A stretch of 15,093 nt of DNA from an uncultured Acidimicrobium sp. (lineage in GTDB: Bacteria > Actinomycetota > Acidimicrobiia > Acidimicrobiales > Ilumatobacteraceae), in NCBI GenBank assembly GCA_903853285.1, contig CAINTF010000130.1:1-15093 (forward strand), given 5' to 3'. A program made the position numbers and the translations under genes. Positions 2,151-12,521 of the stretch are shown here, in pieces. How positions within the stretch are numbered: position 1 is the stretch's first letter; every line of letters starts with the position of its first letter. The notes below the pieces were generated by a model. That model worked only from the letters and a program-made list of their open reading frames with translations. It did no database searches and was not told where the DNA came from.

Positions 2151-3086
2151 ATGCCGCAAGCGCATCACAACACTGCAGAACAAATCTCTGTAGCCGGTTA
2201 CAAGCTCGCATCGCTGGTCGCCCGTGTTGCTCCCTCATCGGTTTTGTTGGGAGCTGCTAGTGGGGTAGGTAGTTCTCTTGCAAGAGCAATGAAGCAAAAC
2301 AGGGCAATGGTGATGCGACATTTACAAAGGGTTGATCCAAGCCTGACAGGAAAGCAGTTGCAGGAGGCAACACAACAGGCGTTTGTGAGTTACACGCGTT
2401 ATTACTTAGAAACTTTTCGCCTGCCTTCGCTGTCGCAGCAGCAAATTGCAGATGGCCATCATGTCGAAGGGTTTCAATACATCGAAGATTCGGCGGCCAA
2501 AGGCAAGGGCACAATTCTTGCGCTGCCACATATGGGCGGATGGGAATGGTCTGGACGGTGGTTGATCGATCAGGGATATCAATTGACCGCAGTTGTTGAG
2601 CGTCTAGAAAATACGGAACTGTTCGAGTGGTTTGTCGAATTGCGTTCAAGATATGGGGTCAATGTCATTGCACTGACTGATGATGCGGGAATTGCGGTTG
2701 GCAAAGCATTGCGCGATAACCACGTTGTGTCGCTGCTGTGCGATCGCGATATCCCCAAAGATGGCAAACGCACTGGGGTCGAAGTGCAGTTTTTTGGTGA
2801 AACCACGACGGTGCCAGCCGGACCAGCCTTTTTTGCATTGCGAACTGGTGCGCAACTTTTGCCGATGGCTACCTTCTTTACACCCGGCGCCAACGGACAC
2901 AAGTCGGTCATCAGACCCGCACTCGTTGTTGAACGACAAGGTTCACTGCGCGACGACGTCGCACGAATCACTCAAATGCTGACAACCGAAATCGAAAATC
3001 TGATTCGCCAGGCACCAGAGCAGTGGCACTTGTTTCAACCGAACTGGCCGAGTGATCCCGGTTACCAGGATCAGACTGTTGCCTAG
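2151..3086 (+). CDS. PatA-like phosphatidylinositol mannoside acyltransferase (LPLAT/HtrB family)
   Basis: A 311-residue member of the LpxL/HtrB-like lysophospholipid acyltransferase family. The catalytic H-x4-(D/E) motif is L-P-H-M-G-G-W-E with H127 and E132. Other family landmarks: ERLENTELFEWFVELRSRYG, CDRDIPKDG, VEVQFFGE, VPAGPAFFALRTGAQLLP and the C-terminal WHLFQPNW. These align well with mycobacterial PatA (Rv2611c), which transfers an acyl chain from acyl-CoA to the 2-mannose of PIM on the cytosolic membrane face. The N-terminal 20–60 residues are amphipathic/hydrophobic, consistent with membrane association. In mycobacteria pimA follows immediately; here the next plus-strand lipid gene lies 2.9 kb away, beyond the ars cassette. 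Its TAG stop shares the CTAG at 3083–3086 with the stop of arsR on the other strand. Confidence 0.88.
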   Translation: MPQAHHNTAEQISVAGYKLASLVARVAPSSVLLGAASGVGSSLARAMKQNRAMVMRHLQRVDPSLTGKQLQEATQQAFVSYTRYYLETFRLPSLSQQQIADGHHVEGFQYIEDSAAKGKGTILALPHMGGWEWSGRWLIDQGYQLTAVVERLENTELFEWFVELRSRYGVNVIALTDDAGIAVGKALRDNHVVSLLCDRDIPKDGKRTGVEVQFFGETTTVPAGPAFFALRTGAQLLPMATFFTPGANGHKSVIRPALVVERQGSLRDDVARITQMLTTEIENLIRQAPEQWHLFQPNWPSDPGYQDQTVA

Positions 3087-3418
3087 CCGAGTACGTCTTG
3101 CAACTCTTGTAACCGATCGCGATTAACTCGGTACCAAATCCATGTTCCGCGTTTGGTACCAGTAATCAGGCCGGCTTCGCGTAAGACTTTCAAGTGGTGA
3201 CTTACTGTTGGTTGTGAACGTCCAGTTGGCTTGACGAGGGAGCATGCACAAGTTTCTGCATCTTCAGAAGCGGCGATGAGGCTAAACAGTTTGAGTCGAG
3301 TCGGATCTGCCAGAGCGGCAAATCCCTGAGACAAATTGTCGGCATTGCGCGTCGAGAGAGATGCCTCAGTGACTGGCGAACAGCAGACGGGGGTGCGTGT
3401 TATATTGATGACTGTCAA
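3083..3418 (-). CDS. arsR: ArsR/SmtB-family metalloid-responsive repressor
   Basis: A winged-helix repressor of 111 residues if translation starts at TTG 3418. The core is FAALADPTRLKLFSLIA, then the recognition helix region SQPTVSHHLKVLREAGLI and wing TGTKRGTWIWYRV, all hallmarks of ArsR. Candidate As(III)/Sb(III) ligands are the N-terminal vicinal pair C12-C13 (V-C-C-S-P) and C57/C59 in the ETCACSL segment, the position of the C-x-C of classical ArsR; the N-terminal pair resembles the Corynebacterium-type site. The frame stays open up to TTG 3454, but that start overlaps the Shine-Dalgarno of the divergent gene. TTG 3418 is the last usable in-frame start that retains C12-C13. It lies inside the palindromic operator 3398–3425, so the gene is probably autoregulated. 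Metal specificity is inferred from neighbours. Confidence 0.92.
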   Translation of the reverse strand: MTVINITRTPVCCSPVTEASLSTRNADNLSQGFAALADPTRLKLFSLIAASEDAETCACSLVKPTGRSQPTVSHHLKVLREAGLITGTKRGTWIWYRVNRDRLQELQDVLG

Positions 3419-3425
3419 TATAACA
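3398..3425. promoter_or_regulatory. ArsR operator: perfect 11-bp inverted repeat between arsR and cadI/arsI
   Basis: TGTTATATTGA (3398–3408) and TCAATATAACA (3415–3425) are exact reverse complements separated by 6 nt (TGACTG). The form A/T-rich arm with TTGA...TCAA-type inner edges is what ArsR/SmtB dimers typically bind. It covers the proposed arsR start codon and contains a -10-like TATAAC (3419–3424) for the plus-strand operon, so one bound dimer could block both directions. Confidence 0.85.
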
Positions 3426-3426
3426 G

Positions 3427-3454
3427 AAGATAGAGCAGACGGTACAACAATCAA
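3427..3454 (-). promoter_or_regulatory. Candidate arsR promoter
   Basis: On the minus strand, TTGATT (3454–3449) is followed by 16 nt and TATCTT (3432–3427). Transcription would begin around 3419, a base or so from TTG 3418, giving an essentially leaderless arsR mRNA that starts within the operator. The exact elements are inferred by eye. Confidence 0.45.
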
Positions 3455-3457
3455 TAT

Positions 3458-3469
3458 GGAGGCGAGATG
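3458..3469 (+). promoter_or_regulatory. Strong Shine-Dalgarno for cadI/arsI
   Basis: GGAGG at 3458–3462 sits 4 nt before ATG 3467. It is one of the few strong ribosome binding sites in the window (another is before yebC) and contrasts with the apparently leaderless starts of the chromosomal genes pimA, lemA, pdxS and ruvC. It fixes the start codon of this gene. Confidence 0.8.
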
Positions 3470-3880
3470 TCACGGGTCCAATTAGCGCTCAATGTTTCTA
3501 ATTTGAACGATGCAATTGAGTTCTACTCAAAAATGTTCAATGCAACTCCTGCCAAGGTTCGTGAGGGGTACGCAAACTTCGCAATCGCTGATCCACCTTT
3601 GAAGTTGGTGTTGATTGAAACGCCACGAGATGAACATGCCGAGTATCAACACATCAATCACCTTGGCGTTGAGCTTGAGTCGAGTGAACTTGTTGAAAAA
3701 TCAATTGCACGATTTGAACAACTTGGATTAGTGGAGTCTGTGGAGAAAGATTCCACATGCTGCTACGCCGTGCAAGACAAGGTGTGGATGCAAAGTCCTG
3801 ATGGCGCACCTTGGGAGTACTACACAGTGTTGTCTGATGCGCCAACATTTCATGCGACTATTGATCAGAAGTGCTGCTAA
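3467..3880 (+). CDS. CadI/ArsI-like vicinal-oxygen-chelate protein (candidate C–As lyase)
   Basis: A 137-residue glyoxalase/dioxygenase-fold protein. The opening MSRVQLALNV, then YANFAIADPPLKLVL, NHLGVEL, TCCYAVQDKVWM and PWEYYTVL closely resemble M. tuberculosis CadI (Rv2641) and the ArsI Fe(II)-dependent C–As lyases. Candidate metal ligands are Q5, H65 and E117. The vicinal C98-C99 corresponds to the pair ArsI uses to hold trivalent organoarsenicals, and a second Cys pair (C136-C137) ends the protein, as CadI also has Cys near its tail. It either demethylates MAs(III) or sequesters a thiophilic metal such as Cd(II); sequence alone cannot decide. It is the first gene of the plus-strand ars operon, directly downstream of the ArsR operator, so it should be induced by metalloid. 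The next gene starts 2 nt after its stop. Confidence 0.92.
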   Translation: MSRVQLALNVSNLNDAIEFYSKMFNATPAKVREGYANFAIADPPLKLVLIETPRDEHAEYQHINHLGVELESSELVEKSIARFEQLGLVESVEKDSTCCYAVQDKVWMQSPDGAPWEYYTVLSDAPTFHATIDQKCC

Positions 3881-3882
3881 AA

Positions 3883-4560
3883 ATGTCCGCGGCAAATGTG
3901 GTGATGTCACGAAAGTTGTTAGCCGAAGCGATCGGAACCGGGCTGCTGATAGTTGCAGTCATCGGTTCGGGGATCATGGCCGAGAGGCTCACCGACATTG
4001 TGGCCTTGCAATTGTTGTGTAACGCCATCGCTACTGGTGGAGCGTTAGTTGCATTGATTTTGATTTTTGCTCCAGTGTCGGGTGCTTCTTTTAATCCTGT
4101 TGTTGGAATTGTCGGAGTGTTTACTGGTGAGGCAACAATGCGAGATACAGCGCTATATGCAGTAGCGCAGACTGTCGGCGGGTGCATTGGCGCCATCACA
4201 GCAAATTTGATGTTTGATTTGGACGCCATCAACATTTCGCAAAAAGTGCGCTCTGGTTCAGGGATTCTTTTCTCTGAAGTAGTGGCAACGATCGGTTTAC
4301 TTGTGGTGATCTATGGAACTATTCGTGCACAGCGTGCAAATTTGGTTCCGTTTACGGTTGCGGCGTGGATAACAGGAGCATATTTTTTCACTTCATCAAC
4401 TTCATTGGCAAACCCAGCAGTAACCATTGCTCGAAGTTTGAGCAACACATTTGCAGGAATTGCTCCAGAGTCAGTGCCAATGTTCGTATTGATGCAATTG
4501 ATCGGCGCCATGATGGCAGTGGCGATCATCAAGTTCGTTTTCGGTGAATCGCAGTCATGA
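3883..4560 (+). CDS. AqpS-like MIP-family channel (aquaglyceroporin, arsenite efflux)
   Basis: A six-helix major intrinsic protein of about 225 residues. The two half-helix motifs are N-P-V (71–73, in SGASFNPVVG) and N-P-A (177–179, in SLANPAVTIAR). The residue directly after NPA, which is the selectivity-filter arginine in most aquaporins, is V180; the first motif is NPV rather than NPA. Such changes widen the pore and resemble the AqpS channel encoded in the Sinorhizobium meliloti ars operon, where As(III) made by ArsC leaves the cell by facilitated diffusion. No ArsB or Acr3 pump is seen here, so this channel is the likely exit route. Start: ATG 3883 chosen; ATG 3904 (MSRKLLAEAIGTG) is a plausible alternative, while GTG 3871 overlaps the previous gene. 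The stop overlaps the arsC start as ATGA. Confidence 0.9.
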   Translation: MSAANVVMSRKLLAEAIGTGLLIVAVIGSGIMAERLTDIVALQLLCNAIATGGALVALILIFAPVSGASFNPVVGIVGVFTGEATMRDTALYAVAQTVGGCIGAITANLMFDLDAINISQKVRSGSGILFSEVVATIGLLVVIYGTIRAQRANLVPFTVAAWITGAYFFTSSTSLANPAVTIARSLSNTFAGIAPESVPMFVLMQLIGAMMAVAIIKFVFGESQS

Positions 4561-4946
4561 AGGGTGTTTTGTTTCTGTGCATTCACAACTCTGGTCGTTC
4601 TCAAATGGCTGCAGGGTTTATGCGTCACCTCGGGGCTGGTCGAGTCACGGTTTATTCGGCAGGCTCGGAGCCAGCAAATTCAATTAATCCTTCTGCCGTT
4701 GCAGTGATGAAGGAAGTTGGAATCGATATTGCATCGGCTCAACCACAATTGTGGACTATGGAGATGCTGGAAGCAGTAGACGTTGTCGTAACTATGGGCT
4801 GTGGTGATGCGTGCCCGTTTTTACCCGGCAAAAAGTATGTGGACTGGCCCCTCAAGGATCCCGCAGGTCAAGGTGTAGACGCAGTGCGTCCAATCCGCGA
4901 TGAAATTCAAAAACTTGTAGAGGATTTACTTGCAGAAATTTCGTAA
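4557..4946 (+). CDS. arsC: Arsenate reductase, low-molecular-weight phosphatase type
   Basis: A 129-residue LMW-PTP-fold arsenate reductase. The P-loop is C-I-H-N-S-G-R-S with nucleophile C8 and R14 (CX5R), followed by Q-M-A; the acid loop is D-W-P-L-K-D-P with D101. Two further cysteines lie in M-G-C-G-D-A-C-P (C82, C86). Family knowledge: thioredoxin-coupled ArsC uses C10/C82/C89, whereas corynebacterial ArsC1/2 use mycothiol and mycoredoxin. The close C82/C86 spacing does not match the pI258 pattern exactly, so the reductant is unresolved. It reduces As(V) to As(III) in the cytosol, which the adjacent channel can release. The ATG overlaps the channel gene's TGA (ATGA), indicating translational coupling. 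It converges with the oxidoreductase gene on the other strand, 15 nt apart. Confidence 0.95.
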   Translation: MKGVLFLCIHNSGRSQMAAGFMRHLGAGRVTVYSAGSEPANSINPSAVAVMKEVGIDIASAQPQLWTMEMLEAVDVVVTMGCGDACPFLPGKKYVDWPLKDPAGQGVDAVRPIRDEIQKLVEDLLAEIS

Positions 4947-4947
4947 C

Positions 4948-4969
4948 TCGCCTCACCTGTATTAGGCGA
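4948..4969. terminator. Weak hairpin between convergent arsC and oxidoreductase genes
   Basis: TCGCCT (4948–4953) and AGGCGA (4964–4969) are exact reverse complements with a 10-nt loop, spanning the 15-nt gap between the two stops. There is no clear T-tract on either strand, so a bidirectional terminator role is only possible. Confidence 0.3.
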
Positions 4970-5894
4970 AAGCATTAAAAAGTTCGTTAATCGCCTTTAC
5001 CTGACCGCCGGTGGTAGACGACATCACTGCAATCGGTAAAACACCTGCGTTGGCCCACGCTGCAAATTGTTCGCGCACTTGAGCTGCTGAACCAGAGATT
5101 GTGCAGTCGCGTAGCCATGAATCACTCATCGTGGCTTGCAACGCCTCTGCCATGGATTCCTTTGGAGTCGTGGCAAGCACATTTTCGATTGCGTCCATCT
5201 CAACTTCGTAGCCGGCGGTACGCCAATAGTTTCGATAGTTGGGTAGAGAGACGTAACCAGTCAATGTCTTGCGGTGCAGTGCCAATGCCGCTTCGACATC
5301 GTCACTGATGATGGTTGGAACCATGTTGGACATAAAGAATGTGGATCGTTTGTCGGCGGGGAGTGTTGCAACCTGACGCCCAATATCGCGCAAGGAAGCA
5401 TTTGCCCAAATGGCTCCTTCGGAGATTTGGTGTGAGAGCGCAAGCATCTTGTCACGCAGTGTTGCGAGATAAATCGGTGGAAGCTCGCCCGAAAATTTCT
5501 CGTTTGCGCGCATTGCTGCAACATAGTTGGAAATGTCGCTGAGTGGCTTGCCGGTTTCAACTCCGAGACGTTGCACAACCGGTCCGTGACTGACACCAAT
5601 GCCGAGACCAAATCGCCCACGAGAAATTTCGTGAATGTGTGCAGCAGTGTTCGCCGTTTCCACTGGGTGGCTGTAATACATCGGTTGTATTGATGTCCAG
5701 TAATGAATTGTGTTTGTGGCATGGGCGAGTGACGTGCAGAGTGCCATCGTGCCGCCGAGGCTTGGGCAGGCAAGACCTTCAAAGCCGAGTTGTTCAGCTT
5801 TTAGCGCCAACTCCAAAATCGAATTGCGTTTGGTGGGCGAGGCGACAATCGAAATTGCCGGCTTGGAGTACGGGTTTGCAGGGAACTGCGTCAT
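4962..5894 (-). CDS. LLM-class (luciferase-like, probably F420-dependent) oxidoreductase
   Basis: A 310-residue TIM-barrel protein of the bacterial luciferase-like monooxygenase family. Visible landmarks are ALKAEQLGFEGLACP (barrel strand/helix 1), SIQPMYYSHPVETANTAAHIHEISRGRF, GLGIGVSHGPVVQRLG (phosphate/cofactor region) and the C-terminal ISGSAAQVREQFAAWANAGV, a typical closing segment. Actinobacterial members commonly use F420H2; FMN use cannot be excluded. Substrate unknown. ATG 5894 is the natural start, giving MTQFPANPYSKPAISIV. The gene points away from pimA across an 88-nt divergent spacer and toward arsC. Together with the ars cassette it accounts for the DNA separating the PatA and PimA genes. 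It may or may not belong functionally to metalloid handling; nothing in its sequence indicates that. Confidence 0.88.
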   Translation of the reverse strand: MTQFPANPYSKPAISIVASPTKRNSILELALKAEQLGFEGLACPSLGGTMALCTSLAHATNTIHYWTSIQPMYYSHPVETANTAAHIHEISRGRFGLGIGVSHGPVVQRLGVETGKPLSDISNYVAAMRANEKFSGELPPIYLATLRDKMLALSHQISEGAIWANASLRDIGRQVATLPADKRSTFFMSNMVPTIISDDVEAALALHRKTLTGYVSLPNYRNYWRTAGYEVEMDAIENVLATTPKESMAEALQATMSDSWLRDCTISGSAAQVREQFAAWANAGVLPIAVMSSTTGGQVKAINELFNAFA

Positions 5895-5981: not shown

Positions 5982-5985
5982 CGTG
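5970..5985 (+). promoter_or_regulatory. Leaderless promoter -10 (TACCGT) for pimA
   Basis: TACCGT at 5970–5975 is followed by 7 nt and GTG 5983, the same arrangement as at lemA, pdxS and ruvC. It implies an mRNA starting at or next to GTG 5983. No strong -35 is visible. Confidence 0.5.
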
Positions 5986-7155
5986 AACATGTTGCGGGTT
6001 GCAATGGTGAGTCCCTACAGCGTGTCAGTTCCGGGTGGAGTACAAGCTCAAGTCATGGGTTTGGCGCGCGAGCTTCGCCGCATCGGTCACGAAGTACGAG
6101 TGCTGGCGCCATGTGATGGTCCTCCTCCTGAGCCATTTGTGACACCGTTGGGTCAGAGCTTGCCGACTTCTGCAAATGGATCGGTTGCACCGCTTGCGCC
6201 GGATCCATCAGCAGCATTGCGTACGATTCGCGCCCTCAATGATGAGGCCTTTGACGTCATACATTTACATGAACCCATCGTTCCCGGTCCTACGGTTACT
6301 TCATTGTTGTTGCGACTTGCACCAACAGTGGGAACATTCCATGCAGCAGGCGATTCATCGTCGTATCGAGTTCTCAATAAAACTGCGCGTTGGGCGGCCA
6401 ACCACTTGAGCGCACGTGTTGCGGTATCTGAAGCTGCAAAGGAACTTGCTTCGAGATATCTCGACGGTGAGTATCAGGTGCTGTTCAACGGAATAGAAAC
6501 CTCTCGTTACCTGAAACATGGTGCAGAGCGCGAGGTTCAACCAACCATTTTTTTCTGCGGTCGTTTTGAACCTCGAAAAGGACTAGAAGTATTGCTTGGC
6601 GCGATGAAGCACTTGCCTCACAATTTTACGTTGTGGATCGCTGCGGATGGTCCTGGCATAGATGAAATGCACAGACTGTATGAGAGTGATAAGCGTATTT
6701 TGTGGCTTGGTCGAATTACCGAAACAGACAAGCTCGATCGACTTTCGCGCTGCACAGTTTTCTGTGCTCCTTCTCTGCGCGGTGAATCCTTCGGCATAGT
6801 TCTGCTTGAGGCAATGGCGGCGGCAGCCCCACTTGTTACAACTGATATTGATGGCTATCGAAATGTTGCGACACACGAATTGAATGCATTGCTTGTCGCA
6901 CCAGGCGATGAGGAGCAGTTGGCAAATTCGATAACTCGGATCGTCAACGACACCAATCTGTCGCAACGCTTGGTTGCTGGTGGTCTGAAACGCGCAGAGG
7001 ATTTTTCGATGCAACGTCTCGCAAGGGAGTACGTCGTGATTTACGAGAAGCTGTTGGCAGCCGAGAAAAATGATGAGATTGTTGTGCAACCAAACAAGCT
7101 GCTGTCAATGTTTGAGCATCGCGTACTTCGTCGTTCTCCAAGTGCTCGTTCATAG
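5983..7155 (+). CDS. pimA: GT4 glycosyltransferase, PimA-like phosphatidylinositol mannosyltransferase
   Basis: A 390-residue GT-B fold glycosyltransferase. N-terminal MVSPYSVSVPGGVQAQV contains the G18-G19 loop that contacts the donor diphosphate. H120 (GTFHA), R194 and K199 (GRFEPRKG) and the E268...E276 (GESFGIVLLE) EX7E-type motif match the donor-site residues of mycobacterial PimA, which transfers mannose from GDP-mannose to the inositol of phosphatidylinositol on the cytosolic membrane face. Length and motif order fit PimA well. GTG 5983 is preferred by the promoter geometry; ATG 5989 (MLRVAMV) is the alternative and removes only two residues. The gene sits downstream of the ars cassette and the oxidoreductase instead of next to the PatA gene, and apparently has its own promoter. 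The C-terminal ~30 residues are basic and poorly conserved. A related PI-glycosyltransferase is possible. Confidence 0.85.
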   Translation: MNMLRVAMVSPYSVSVPGGVQAQVMGLARELRRIGHEVRVLAPCDGPPPEPFVTPLGQSLPTSANGSVAPLAPDPSAALRTIRALNDEAFDVIHLHEPIVPGPTVTSLLLRLAPTVGTFHAAGDSSSYRVLNKTARWAANHLSARVAVSEAAKELASRYLDGEYQVLFNGIETSRYLKHGAEREVQPTIFFCGRFEPRKGLEVLLGAMKHLPHNFTLWIAADGPGIDEMHRLYESDKRILWLGRITETDKLDRLSRCTVFCAPSLRGESFGIVLLEAMAAAAPLVTTDIDGYRNVATHELNALLVAPGDEEQLANSITRIVNDTNLSQRLVAGGLKRAEDFSMQRLAREYVVIYEKLLAAEKNDEIVVQPNKLLSMFEHRVLRRSPSARS

Positions 7156-11325: not shown

Positions 11326-12072
11326 TCAGGCCATTCCAAATGGGCAACGATCAAGCACAAAAAGGGCAAAGCCGACAAAGCGCGTGGCAAGACATTCGCG
11401 AAACTTGCACGGCAGCTTGAAGTCAGTACGAGAGAGGGCGGTGGCGATCCCGCGTCCAACGCTTCGTTGCGCACAATCGTGCTTAAGGCAAAAGCTGCTC
11501 AAATGACGAACGATGCGATCGATCGAGCGATTAAACGAGGAATGGGCGAGCACACTGGTGCTGCATTCGAGTCAATCACCTATGAGGCGTACGCACCGGG
11601 TGGTGTTGCGATGTTGATTGACGCGCTCACCGATAATCGCAATCGAACTGCATCGGATGTGCGACTTGCGTTCAGTAAATCGGGTGGTGCAATGGCGGAG
11701 CCTGGCGCAGTGGGATGGCAATTTTCGCGCAAAGGTGTCGTGCAGATTGACAAATCGGTTTCTGAGGACGAAGTGATGATGGTTTCGCTTGAACACGGAG
11801 CAGAGGACGTCGTGGATGACGGAGATACATGGCGCGTGACATGTGATTCGCAAGCGTTGTATGAACTGAAAGCTTCATTGGAAGCTGCAGGTATGAATGT
11901 TGTGTCTGCAGTGTCAACAATGGTTTCCTCTCTGCAGGTGCCGGTTACCGACATCGCCGATGCCAAGAAAATTCTTCGCATCATGGACGACTTGGAAGAC
12001 AATGACGATGTGCAAGATGTGTACGCTAATTTTGATATGAGCGATGCAATTCTTGAGGAGGCTGCGTCATGA
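11323..12072 (+). CDS. yebC: YebC/PmpR family protein (TACO1-like)
   Basis: A 249-residue YebC protein. It opens with the invariant MSGHSKWATIKHKKGKADKARGKTFAKLARQ, then GGDPASNASLRTIVLKAKAAQMTNDAIDRAIKRG and YEAYAPGGVAMLIDALTDNRNRTASDVR, and ends with DDVQDVYANFD. The family was described as a transcriptional regulator and more recently linked to translation, like mitochondrial TACO1; which applies here cannot be read from sequence. Proximity to ruvCAB is widely conserved in bacteria. It follows pdxT by 2 nt and its TGA overlaps the ATG of the peroxiredoxin gene (ATGA), so it belongs to the pdxS-pdxT-yebC-bcp transcript. Confidence 0.97.
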   Translation: MSGHSKWATIKHKKGKADKARGKTFAKLARQLEVSTREGGGDPASNASLRTIVLKAKAAQMTNDAIDRAIKRGMGEHTGAAFESITYEAYAPGGVAMLIDALTDNRNRTASDVRLAFSKSGGAMAEPGAVGWQFSRKGVVQIDKSVSEDEVMMVSLEHGAEDVVDDGDTWRVTCDSQALYELKASLEAAGMNVVSAVSTMVSSLQVPVTDIADAKKILRIMDDLEDNDDVQDVYANFDMSDAILEEAAS

Positions 12073-12521
12073 GTGTTGCTGTTGGCGATAAGGCACCAGG
12101 GTTCACACTGCTCGGCAGTGGAGGTAAGTCATATTCATTGTCTGATTATGCAGGAAAACCGGTGGTCCTCGTTTTTTATCCTGGTGACAACACAGCGGTG
12201 TGCACCAAGCAATTGTGTTCGTACAACAACGAACTTGCACAATTCAATGGCATTGGAGCCCAGGTTCTCGGCATCTCTGCCCAGGATGTTGCAAGCCATG
12301 ATGCATTTTCTGCCAAGCACGGATTTGGCTTCCCGTTGTTGGCCGACACCGAAAAAGAGGTGGCAGGGGCTTACGGAGTCGTCGGACTATTGGGCATGGT
12401 AAGACGCAGTATTTTTGTGCTCGACGCCCAAGGCGTGATCCGATATGTGCACAGATCTGCGGTCGGACTTACCTTTCGTCCAGTAGGCGAATTGGTAGCG
12501 GCACTGCGCGCGGCGGTCTAA
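12069..12521 (+). CDS. bcp: Peroxiredoxin, Bcp/PrxQ type
   Basis: A 150-residue AhpC/TSA thioredoxin-fold peroxidase. The active motif is Y-P-G-D-N-T-A-V-C45-T-K-Q-L-C50: C45 is the peroxidatic cysteine, and C50, five residues later, is the resolving cysteine that defines the intramolecular-disulfide PrxQ/Bcp type. T42 belongs to the P-x3-T-x2-C motif and R119/R120-region (MVRRSIFVLD) supplies the conserved Arg. It reduces hydrogen peroxide and organic hydroperoxides in the cytosol with a thioredoxin-like donor. The family normally has P-G-x-x-T-x-x-C; the spacing is met. It overlaps yebC by 4 nt, indicating translational coupling, and ends 40 nt before ruvC. Confidence 0.94.
   Translation: MSVAVGDKAPGFTLLGSGGKSYSLSDYAGKPVVLVFYPGDNTAVCTKQLCSYNNELAQFNGIGAQVLGISAQDVASHDAFSAKHGFGFPLLADTEKEVAGAYGVVGLLGMVRRSIFVLDAQGVIRYVHRSAVGLTFRPVGELVAALRAAV

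Follow-up and report, generated by a model that had tools for sequence, protein, structure and literature searches.

This report concerns a four-gene arsenic (ars) cassette of an uncultured Acidimicrobium sp. (family Ilumatobacteraceae; contig CAINTF010000130.1), which lies in a 15,093-nucleotide stretch of DNA referred to here as the window. The first gene, arsR, is on the minus strand (3083..3454) and encodes an ArsR/SmtB repressor (NF033788, 90.3 bits, cut-off 55). The other three are on the plus strand and encode an ArsI/CadI-family dioxygenase of the C-As lyase type (arsI/cadI, 3467..3880; NF041414, 178.9 bits, cut-off 116), an AqpS-like MIP channel (3883..4560; PF00230, 82 bits, cut-off 25) and an arsenate reductase of the LMW-phosphatase type (arsC, 4557..4946; PF01451, 73.2 bits, cut-off 23.2). 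A predicted operator, which is a perfect palindrome with 11-base arms and a 6-base centre, is found at 3398..3425, inside the longest arsR frame. These family matches uphold the identities and coordinates that a sequence-only reading of the window had proposed for four ars genes at 3083-4946.

The three plus-strand genes are tightly packed. The channel gene starts at GTG 3871 or, more likely, at ATG 3883, which leaves a gap of 2 bases after arsI, and it overlaps arsC by 4 bases (ATGA). On the left, arsR overlaps tail to tail with the 3' end of patA (phosphatidylinositol mannoside acyltransferase; 2151..3086, plus strand; 235.7 bits, cut-off 209). On the right, arsC converges on a gene for a luciferase-like (LLM) oxidoreductase (4962..5894, minus strand; domain match), followed by a pimA-like gene for a GT4 glycosyltransferase (5983..7155, plus strand; assigned by its domains). 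Thus, the layout described in the sequence-only reading, with patA and the pimA-like gene parted by the cassette and the LLM gene, is correct. Among 25 of the 31 NCBIfam matches of the pimA-like protein, none is PimA and none is over its cut-off, and the PimA label is due to the position beside pgsA-patA rather than to family models. We considered the LLM gene as a part of the cassette and rejected this idea, because the gene remains at sites that have no ars genes (genomes G005, G009, G021 and G030).

The draft genome that contains the window has 1.58 Mb and is 82% complete. The reference set for its genus consists of 23 genomes, called congeners below, eight of which reach a completeness of 90% or more and a contamination no higher than 5%. 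Genera within the Ilumatobacteraceae are numbered g1 (the window genus), g2, g3, g4, g9, g46 and g49, and most of the genomes compared are incomplete metagenome-assembled genomes (MAGs).

The ArsI, ArsC and channel proteins

The Gln, His and Glu residues of ArsI are metal ligands. The window ArsI matches solved ArsI-type chains, which we take to be from Thermomonospora curvata, with an E value of 1e-38, and its metal-ligand and Cys-pair residues are identical to those of 5c4p in the alignment. Gln5, His65, Cys98, Cys99 and Glu117 are kept in all 42 on-site proteins, where on-site means, for the residue counts and the trees, that the locus also matches patA or the LLM gene. The same five residues are present in 12 of the 12 off-site ArsI proteins, bar one gap at Glu117. 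The Cys pair has a role in substrate binding (PMC6514093).

In ArsC, Cys8, Cys82 and Cys86 correspond to the P-loop cysteine and two further redox cysteines. Its closest solved chain is 3t38, with which it has the three cysteines in common, and 3rh0 is without the second and third of them; presumably 3t38 uses thioredoxin and 3rh0 uses mycothiol. Both Cys8 and Arg14, as well as a GCGDxCP motif, occur in 39 of the 39 on-site ArsC proteins. Thioredoxin-using and mycothiol-using classes of ArsC are both described in PMC6514093.

The second NPA motif of the channel is followed by Val, at a place where AqpZ has Arg. This Val is present in 105 of 106 channels of the family and in 76 of 80 named ones; all of them (106/106 and 80/80) also have an Arg five residues past the motif. 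No second MIP gene was found in the source genome, and among the 23 congeners, 20 have exactly one MIP locus and three have none. An ars operon in which a MIP gene accompanies arsR and arsC, as here, is the arrangement by which the AqpS type is recognized.

The arsR gene and its operator

The window ArsR, an ArsR/SmtB metalloregulator by NF033788, also matches the Rv2640c family NF041413 with 99.5 bits, which is under the cut-off of 155. Two start codons are candidates, TTG 3454 and TTG 3418, the latter being within the palindrome. Numbered from TTG 3454, the cysteines are an N-terminal pair, Cys24-Cys25, and Cys69-x-Cys71; the N-terminal pair aligns with a pair in the solved chain 6j0e, presumably a Corynebacterium glutamicum protein. 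No ATG or GTG lies 5' of this pair in the window, and the nearest start codon is the TTG within the palindrome; three g2 genomes (G023, G113 and G164) have a Met codon where the window arsR has this TTG. Among the ArsR rows listed, the N-terminal pair and the CxC are found in 16 g1 and 10 g2 loci, and the N-terminal pair is missing from all 12 g49 rows, so the genera do not all have the same sensor site.

The palindrome is located at the arsR-arsI junction, and its core (3401-3422) is the sole exact copy in the source genome. In 16 of the 23 congeners, the core occurs exactly once per genome; 15 of these copies adjoin arsI, and the remaining one, in G008, adjoins arsR where the contig stops. 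As a control, the reversed pattern had 0 matches in the congeners and none of 200 shuffles of the window contained the core. The seven congeners without it are four block-free genomes, G015, G017 (contig start) and G018 (a run of N upstream of arsI). Related palindromes, counted by eye, are present in the other genera, namely an ATATTGA/TCAATAT type upstream of arsI in g2 (8 of 11 loci) and ACATTGA-N6-TCAATGT in g49 (6 of 16 loci). The prediction of one operator for the whole set is therefore supported by the palindrome and its single copy per genome. Scans for sigma-70 promoters (1 site vs a shuffle mean of 3.0) and terminators (2 vs 3.4) gave counts below those of shuffled sequence.

The site in related genomes

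The sequence-only reading considered both the location and the four-gene combination to be unusual, and neither claim was supported by the comparison. Ars genes are present at the patA-pimA site in 18 of the 23 congeners, absent there in four and undecidable in one, G015, whose contig stops at patA and whose genome has no ArsI, channel or ArsC match. All four genes are visible in 16 of the 18; the partial ones are G008, whose contig breaks off after arsR and the operator, and G017, whose contig begins inside arsI. The site is also occupied in two further genera. A survey of 94 channel loci (four from the window genus and 90 from other genera) placed 29 on the patA-pimA site, that is 1 from the window genus (G017), 12 from g2 and 16 from g49. 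Matches to arsR, arsI and arsC all lie within 3 kb in 19 of the 29. Among the remaining ten, contig ends truncate five; three others have no arsC match, one (G087) has no arsI match and one (G186) has no arsR match.

The combination is likewise found elsewhere. Matches to arsR, arsI and arsC lie at most 3 kb from the channel gene in 8 of 71 named off-site loci, and the same components are known from Frankia (PMC4531530), so a unique combination was rejected. A different set, arsC'-arsC-channel, occurs off-site in G005, G020 and G021, in 4 of 9 g4 channel loci and in 7 of 10 g9 channel loci. One locus, L215, belongs to a record titled Bifidobacterium breve (a MAG) and has a g2-like patA-ars arrangement, which would suggest that the label is wrong.

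The interval between patA and pimA varies in content. The two genes are directly adjacent in G020, G024, G025 and G034. Riboflavin genes, a 938-residue open reading frame, a P450 and an enoyl-CoA hydratase are carried in the interval at L059, L065, L067 and L071. Such unrelated genes in other genera indicate that this is a variable spot.

Pump versus channel

The claim that the cassette uses a channel and no ArsB/Acr3 pump holds for the genus. Acr3 (TIGR00832), ArsB (PF02040) and ArsP were each matched in 0 of the 23 congeners, the source draft (82% complete) included, with the positive controls matched, in a search that was not aimed at ArsJ, ArsK, ArsM or generic exporters. A pump elsewhere in the genome as the main exporter, the possibility raised against the claim, was thus rejected for Acr3, ArsB and ArsP.

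A search of one set of 200 family genomes for both the channel (called at more than 140 bits, 109 of 116 matched genomes) and Acr3 (called over its cut-off, 44 of 49) found the channel in 109, Acr3 in 44 and both in only two (G035 and G062). Counting also the five weaker Acr3 matches brings the genomes with both to four, by adding G036 and G106. The exclusion has a Fisher p of ~2e-15, a value that is not corrected for relatedness. None of the Acr3-positive genomes belongs to g1, g2, g4, g9 or g49. In addition, the channel and ArsC are joined in one open frame in 3 of the 94 loci surveyed, with 385 residues in G141 (L110), 381 in G084 (L111) and 354 in G074 (L134).

Phylogeny of the block

A flank-gene tree was built from 54 of the 66 patA-matching loci, those with at least four of the six flank genes. 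The ars tree (arsI, channel and arsC concatenated) has 65 rows, which are 54 family loci with arsI and the channel gene and 11 named loci chosen by eye; arsC is present in 53 of the 65. There are 17 named off-site loci with arsI nearby, and L227, L229, L235, L259, L263 and L274, with arsI identities of 26-40%, are outside the ars tree.

In the ars tree, the on-site blocks are on one side of one branch (bootstrap 99, SH-aLRT 96.9), as expected if the block was acquired once, long ago. The same side also takes three g46 blocks that are located elsewhere. In the flank-gene tree, the window genus adjoins g4 and g9 genomes, and g49 and g2 are outside. Within the genus, the two trees are concordant at the starred nodes, with the exception of G018, which the ars tree places outside the group that contains the window. 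The DNA identity of this locus (L048) to the window is 77% for arsI and the channel gene, and 83-88% for arsC and the flanking genes; the lower values hint that genes were exchanged between members of the genus.

The sequence-only reading would have taken the block as ancestral, not inserted, if all close relatives had it at the same site with congruent trees. This pattern is borne out by 18 of the 23 congeners, by two other genera and by the one-branch tree, and fails for four of the 23 and for the g3, g4 and g9 genomes. The simplest reading of these sequences is probably one old acquisition with later losses. The losses must be assumed, unless the capture was repeated, because the four congeners and the g3, g4 and g9 genomes lack the block and the g4 and g9 channels are off-site.

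Proposed function and origin

We consider it quite probable that the cassette is a pump-free arsenic detoxification operon, acquired between patA and pimA in a single event by a common ancestor of three or more genera and inherited since, with losses. The gene content, the catalytic residues, the operator, the single channel gene, the lack of a match to the known pumps searched for, the common site and tree, and the Aqp-ArsC fusions are the observations behind this explanation. Substrates, induction, redox partner and direction of flow are predicted as follows. Bound to the arsR-arsI palindrome, ArsR would keep transcription shut off both ways for as long as it carries no As(III). Arsenate would enter the cell as a phosphate analogue and be reduced to As(III) by the three-cysteine ArsC, which is probably coupled to thioredoxin, while methylarsenite would be cleaved to As(III) by ArsI. 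The AqpS-like channel could then let neutral As(OH)3 flow out along its concentration gradient. Aquaglyceroporins carry trivalent arsenicals in both directions (PMC1440775), and a figure legend of the same paper indicates that E. coli GlpF takes up no methylarsenite; a channel of such kind therefore need not pass methylarsenite.

Several observations weigh against this explanation. ArsC is below the cut-offs of the arsC-specific models TIGR02689 (92.7/157.6 bits), TIGR02691 (89.2/174.3) and NF010053 (91.1/215), and so its name comes from the domain, the cysteines, the solved match and the context, not from these models. The best solved matches of the channel are AqpZ water channels, the channel is below the TIGR00861 cut-off, and the pump search covered the three families named above. 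Three on-site g2 blocks, those of G113, G144 and G164 (L173, L159 and L175), are missing arsC. As to the origin, patA-pimA is without ars genes in the congeners G005, G009, G020 and G021, the block is not at the site in the single genome examined from each of g3, g4 and g9, and the channel loci retrieved from g4 (9) and g9 (10) are all off-site. The outgroup of the ars tree is not one group, so the root is approximate, and in a channel-only tree the on-site genera stay apart (support 56).

A wider proposal is that the passive channel took over export from Acr3 for good in several small-genome freshwater lineages, for both inorganic and methylated arsenic and with one operator per genome, and that the arsI-channel pair persists without arsC. 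This may be so, but we regard it as doubtful. If true, the pair without arsC would by itself constitute a demethylate-and-leak system.

Other explanations are less probable than the operon proposed above. It is rather unlikely that methylated arsenic comes first, with ArsI demethylating the methylarsenite of other microbes, the channel draining the As(III) and arsC being accessory. In favour of this reading, arsI is the first gene after the operator, and arsI and the channel gene persist without arsC in the three g2 genomes, which have only weak ArsC-like matches elsewhere (G144 is also without an arsR match). However, the on-site block of G087 (L142) keeps arsC without an arsI match, the Aqp-ArsC fusions of the family link the channel to ArsC, and the window ArsR is without the C-terminal cysteine pair described for a methylarsenite-sensing ArsR of Rhodococcus (PMC6514093).

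For the origin, the on-site blocks could be separate captures, from related donors, at a favoured gap. None of the g4 and g9 genomes examined has the block at the site, nor do G005, G020 and G021, which have arsC'-arsC-channel off-site; the N-terminal Cys pair is absent from the 12 listed g49 ArsR proteins, and the channel-only tree is weak. However, the on-site blocks are equal in gene order and orientation and share a branch side at 99/96.9, and we think that such repeated capture is improbable.

CadI was named after its induction by cadmium, and the channel has AqpZ among its solved matches, so the pair might be a cadmium or thiol-adduct protein and a channel for water or another solute, with no relation to arsenic. 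We consider this very unlikely given the company of arsC and ArsR, the ArsI residues kept in 42 of 42 proteins, the Val in place of the AqpZ Arg in 105 of 106 family channels and the Aqp-ArsC fusions. Finally, the cassette might be mobile DNA recently inserted into the phosphatidylinositol-mannoside locus. This would fit the adjacent patA and pimA of G020, G024, G025 and G034, the unrelated genes in the interval elsewhere and the slightly lower GC content of the block (0.46-0.51 in 500-base windows vs 0.48-0.55 in the remainder of the window). As far as "recent" is concerned, it is refuted by the site common to three genera and the one-branch tree, and no transposase or integrase family was matched among 20 window proteins scanned with Pfam, so that we give it hardly any weight; an old single insertion stays in the preferred explanation.

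Relation to known systems

In Mycobacterium tuberculosis, the arsR gene Rv2640c is divergent from cadI, and in the AqpS operon of Sinorhizobium meliloti, ArsH stands where the window has ArsI/CadI. Channel-enzyme fusions of Aqp and ArsC were reportedly treated by Wu, Song and Beitz in 2010. The window arsR is likewise divergent from cadI, and its product matches the Rv2640c model below the cut-off. In contrast, M. tuberculosis is mentioned in PMC12838822 as having an Acr3-ArsC fusion, that is a pump fusion, whereas the channel and reductase of the window are separate. The window is like the S. meliloti operon (Yang et al. 2005, via PMC6205960 and PMC4531530) in that a channel replaces the pump and is accompanied by ArsC, and unlike it in having ArsI/CadI, a divergent arsR and an actinobacterial lineage. 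AqpS of S. meliloti and an AqpS-ArsC fusion of Salinispora are reviewed in PMC6205960. According to PMC12838822, Aqp-ArsC fusions confer arsenate resistance, and the true kinetics of transport into and out of the cell are still to be measured. The window has a reductase and a channel of the same two families, and true fusions like those published for actinobacteria occur within its own family, but here the two proteins are distinct, their genes overlapping by 4 bases, and arsI is an addition.

The closest precedent is Frankia, also an actinobacterium, in which aqpS genes adjoin arsR, arsC2 and cadI and an aquaporin was proposed as the arsenite exit (PMC4531530, 2014). The four components are the same. 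The Frankia paper does not display the neighbourhoods or give the gene order, and the place in the genome seems to differ; its gene table counts ACR3 in some genomes, whereas the window genus has no Acr3 match. In the open-licence literature, this was the only paper found on cadI, arsR, aquaporin and arsenate in actinobacteria, and none was found on Ilumatobacter with arsenate reductase and aquaporin. The parts, their pairing and the mechanism are thus already known. The site, the genus-wide conservation, the single operator and the channel/Acr3 exclusion were not found in that literature and are what this analysis adds.

The locus offers a comparative case for an open question about AqpS, namely how a passive two-way channel can stand in for an arsenite pump that is driven by energy. 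Ready contrasts are provided by the way channel and Acr3 all but exclude each other within one family, by the three Aqp-ArsC fusions and by the natural losses of arsC. The lineages are probably freshwater ones, in which methylated arsenic made by neighbours may matter.

Elsewhere in the window, a peroxiredoxin-like gene (12069-12521) is located between yebC and ruvC, and its PrxQ-type match is below the cut-off.

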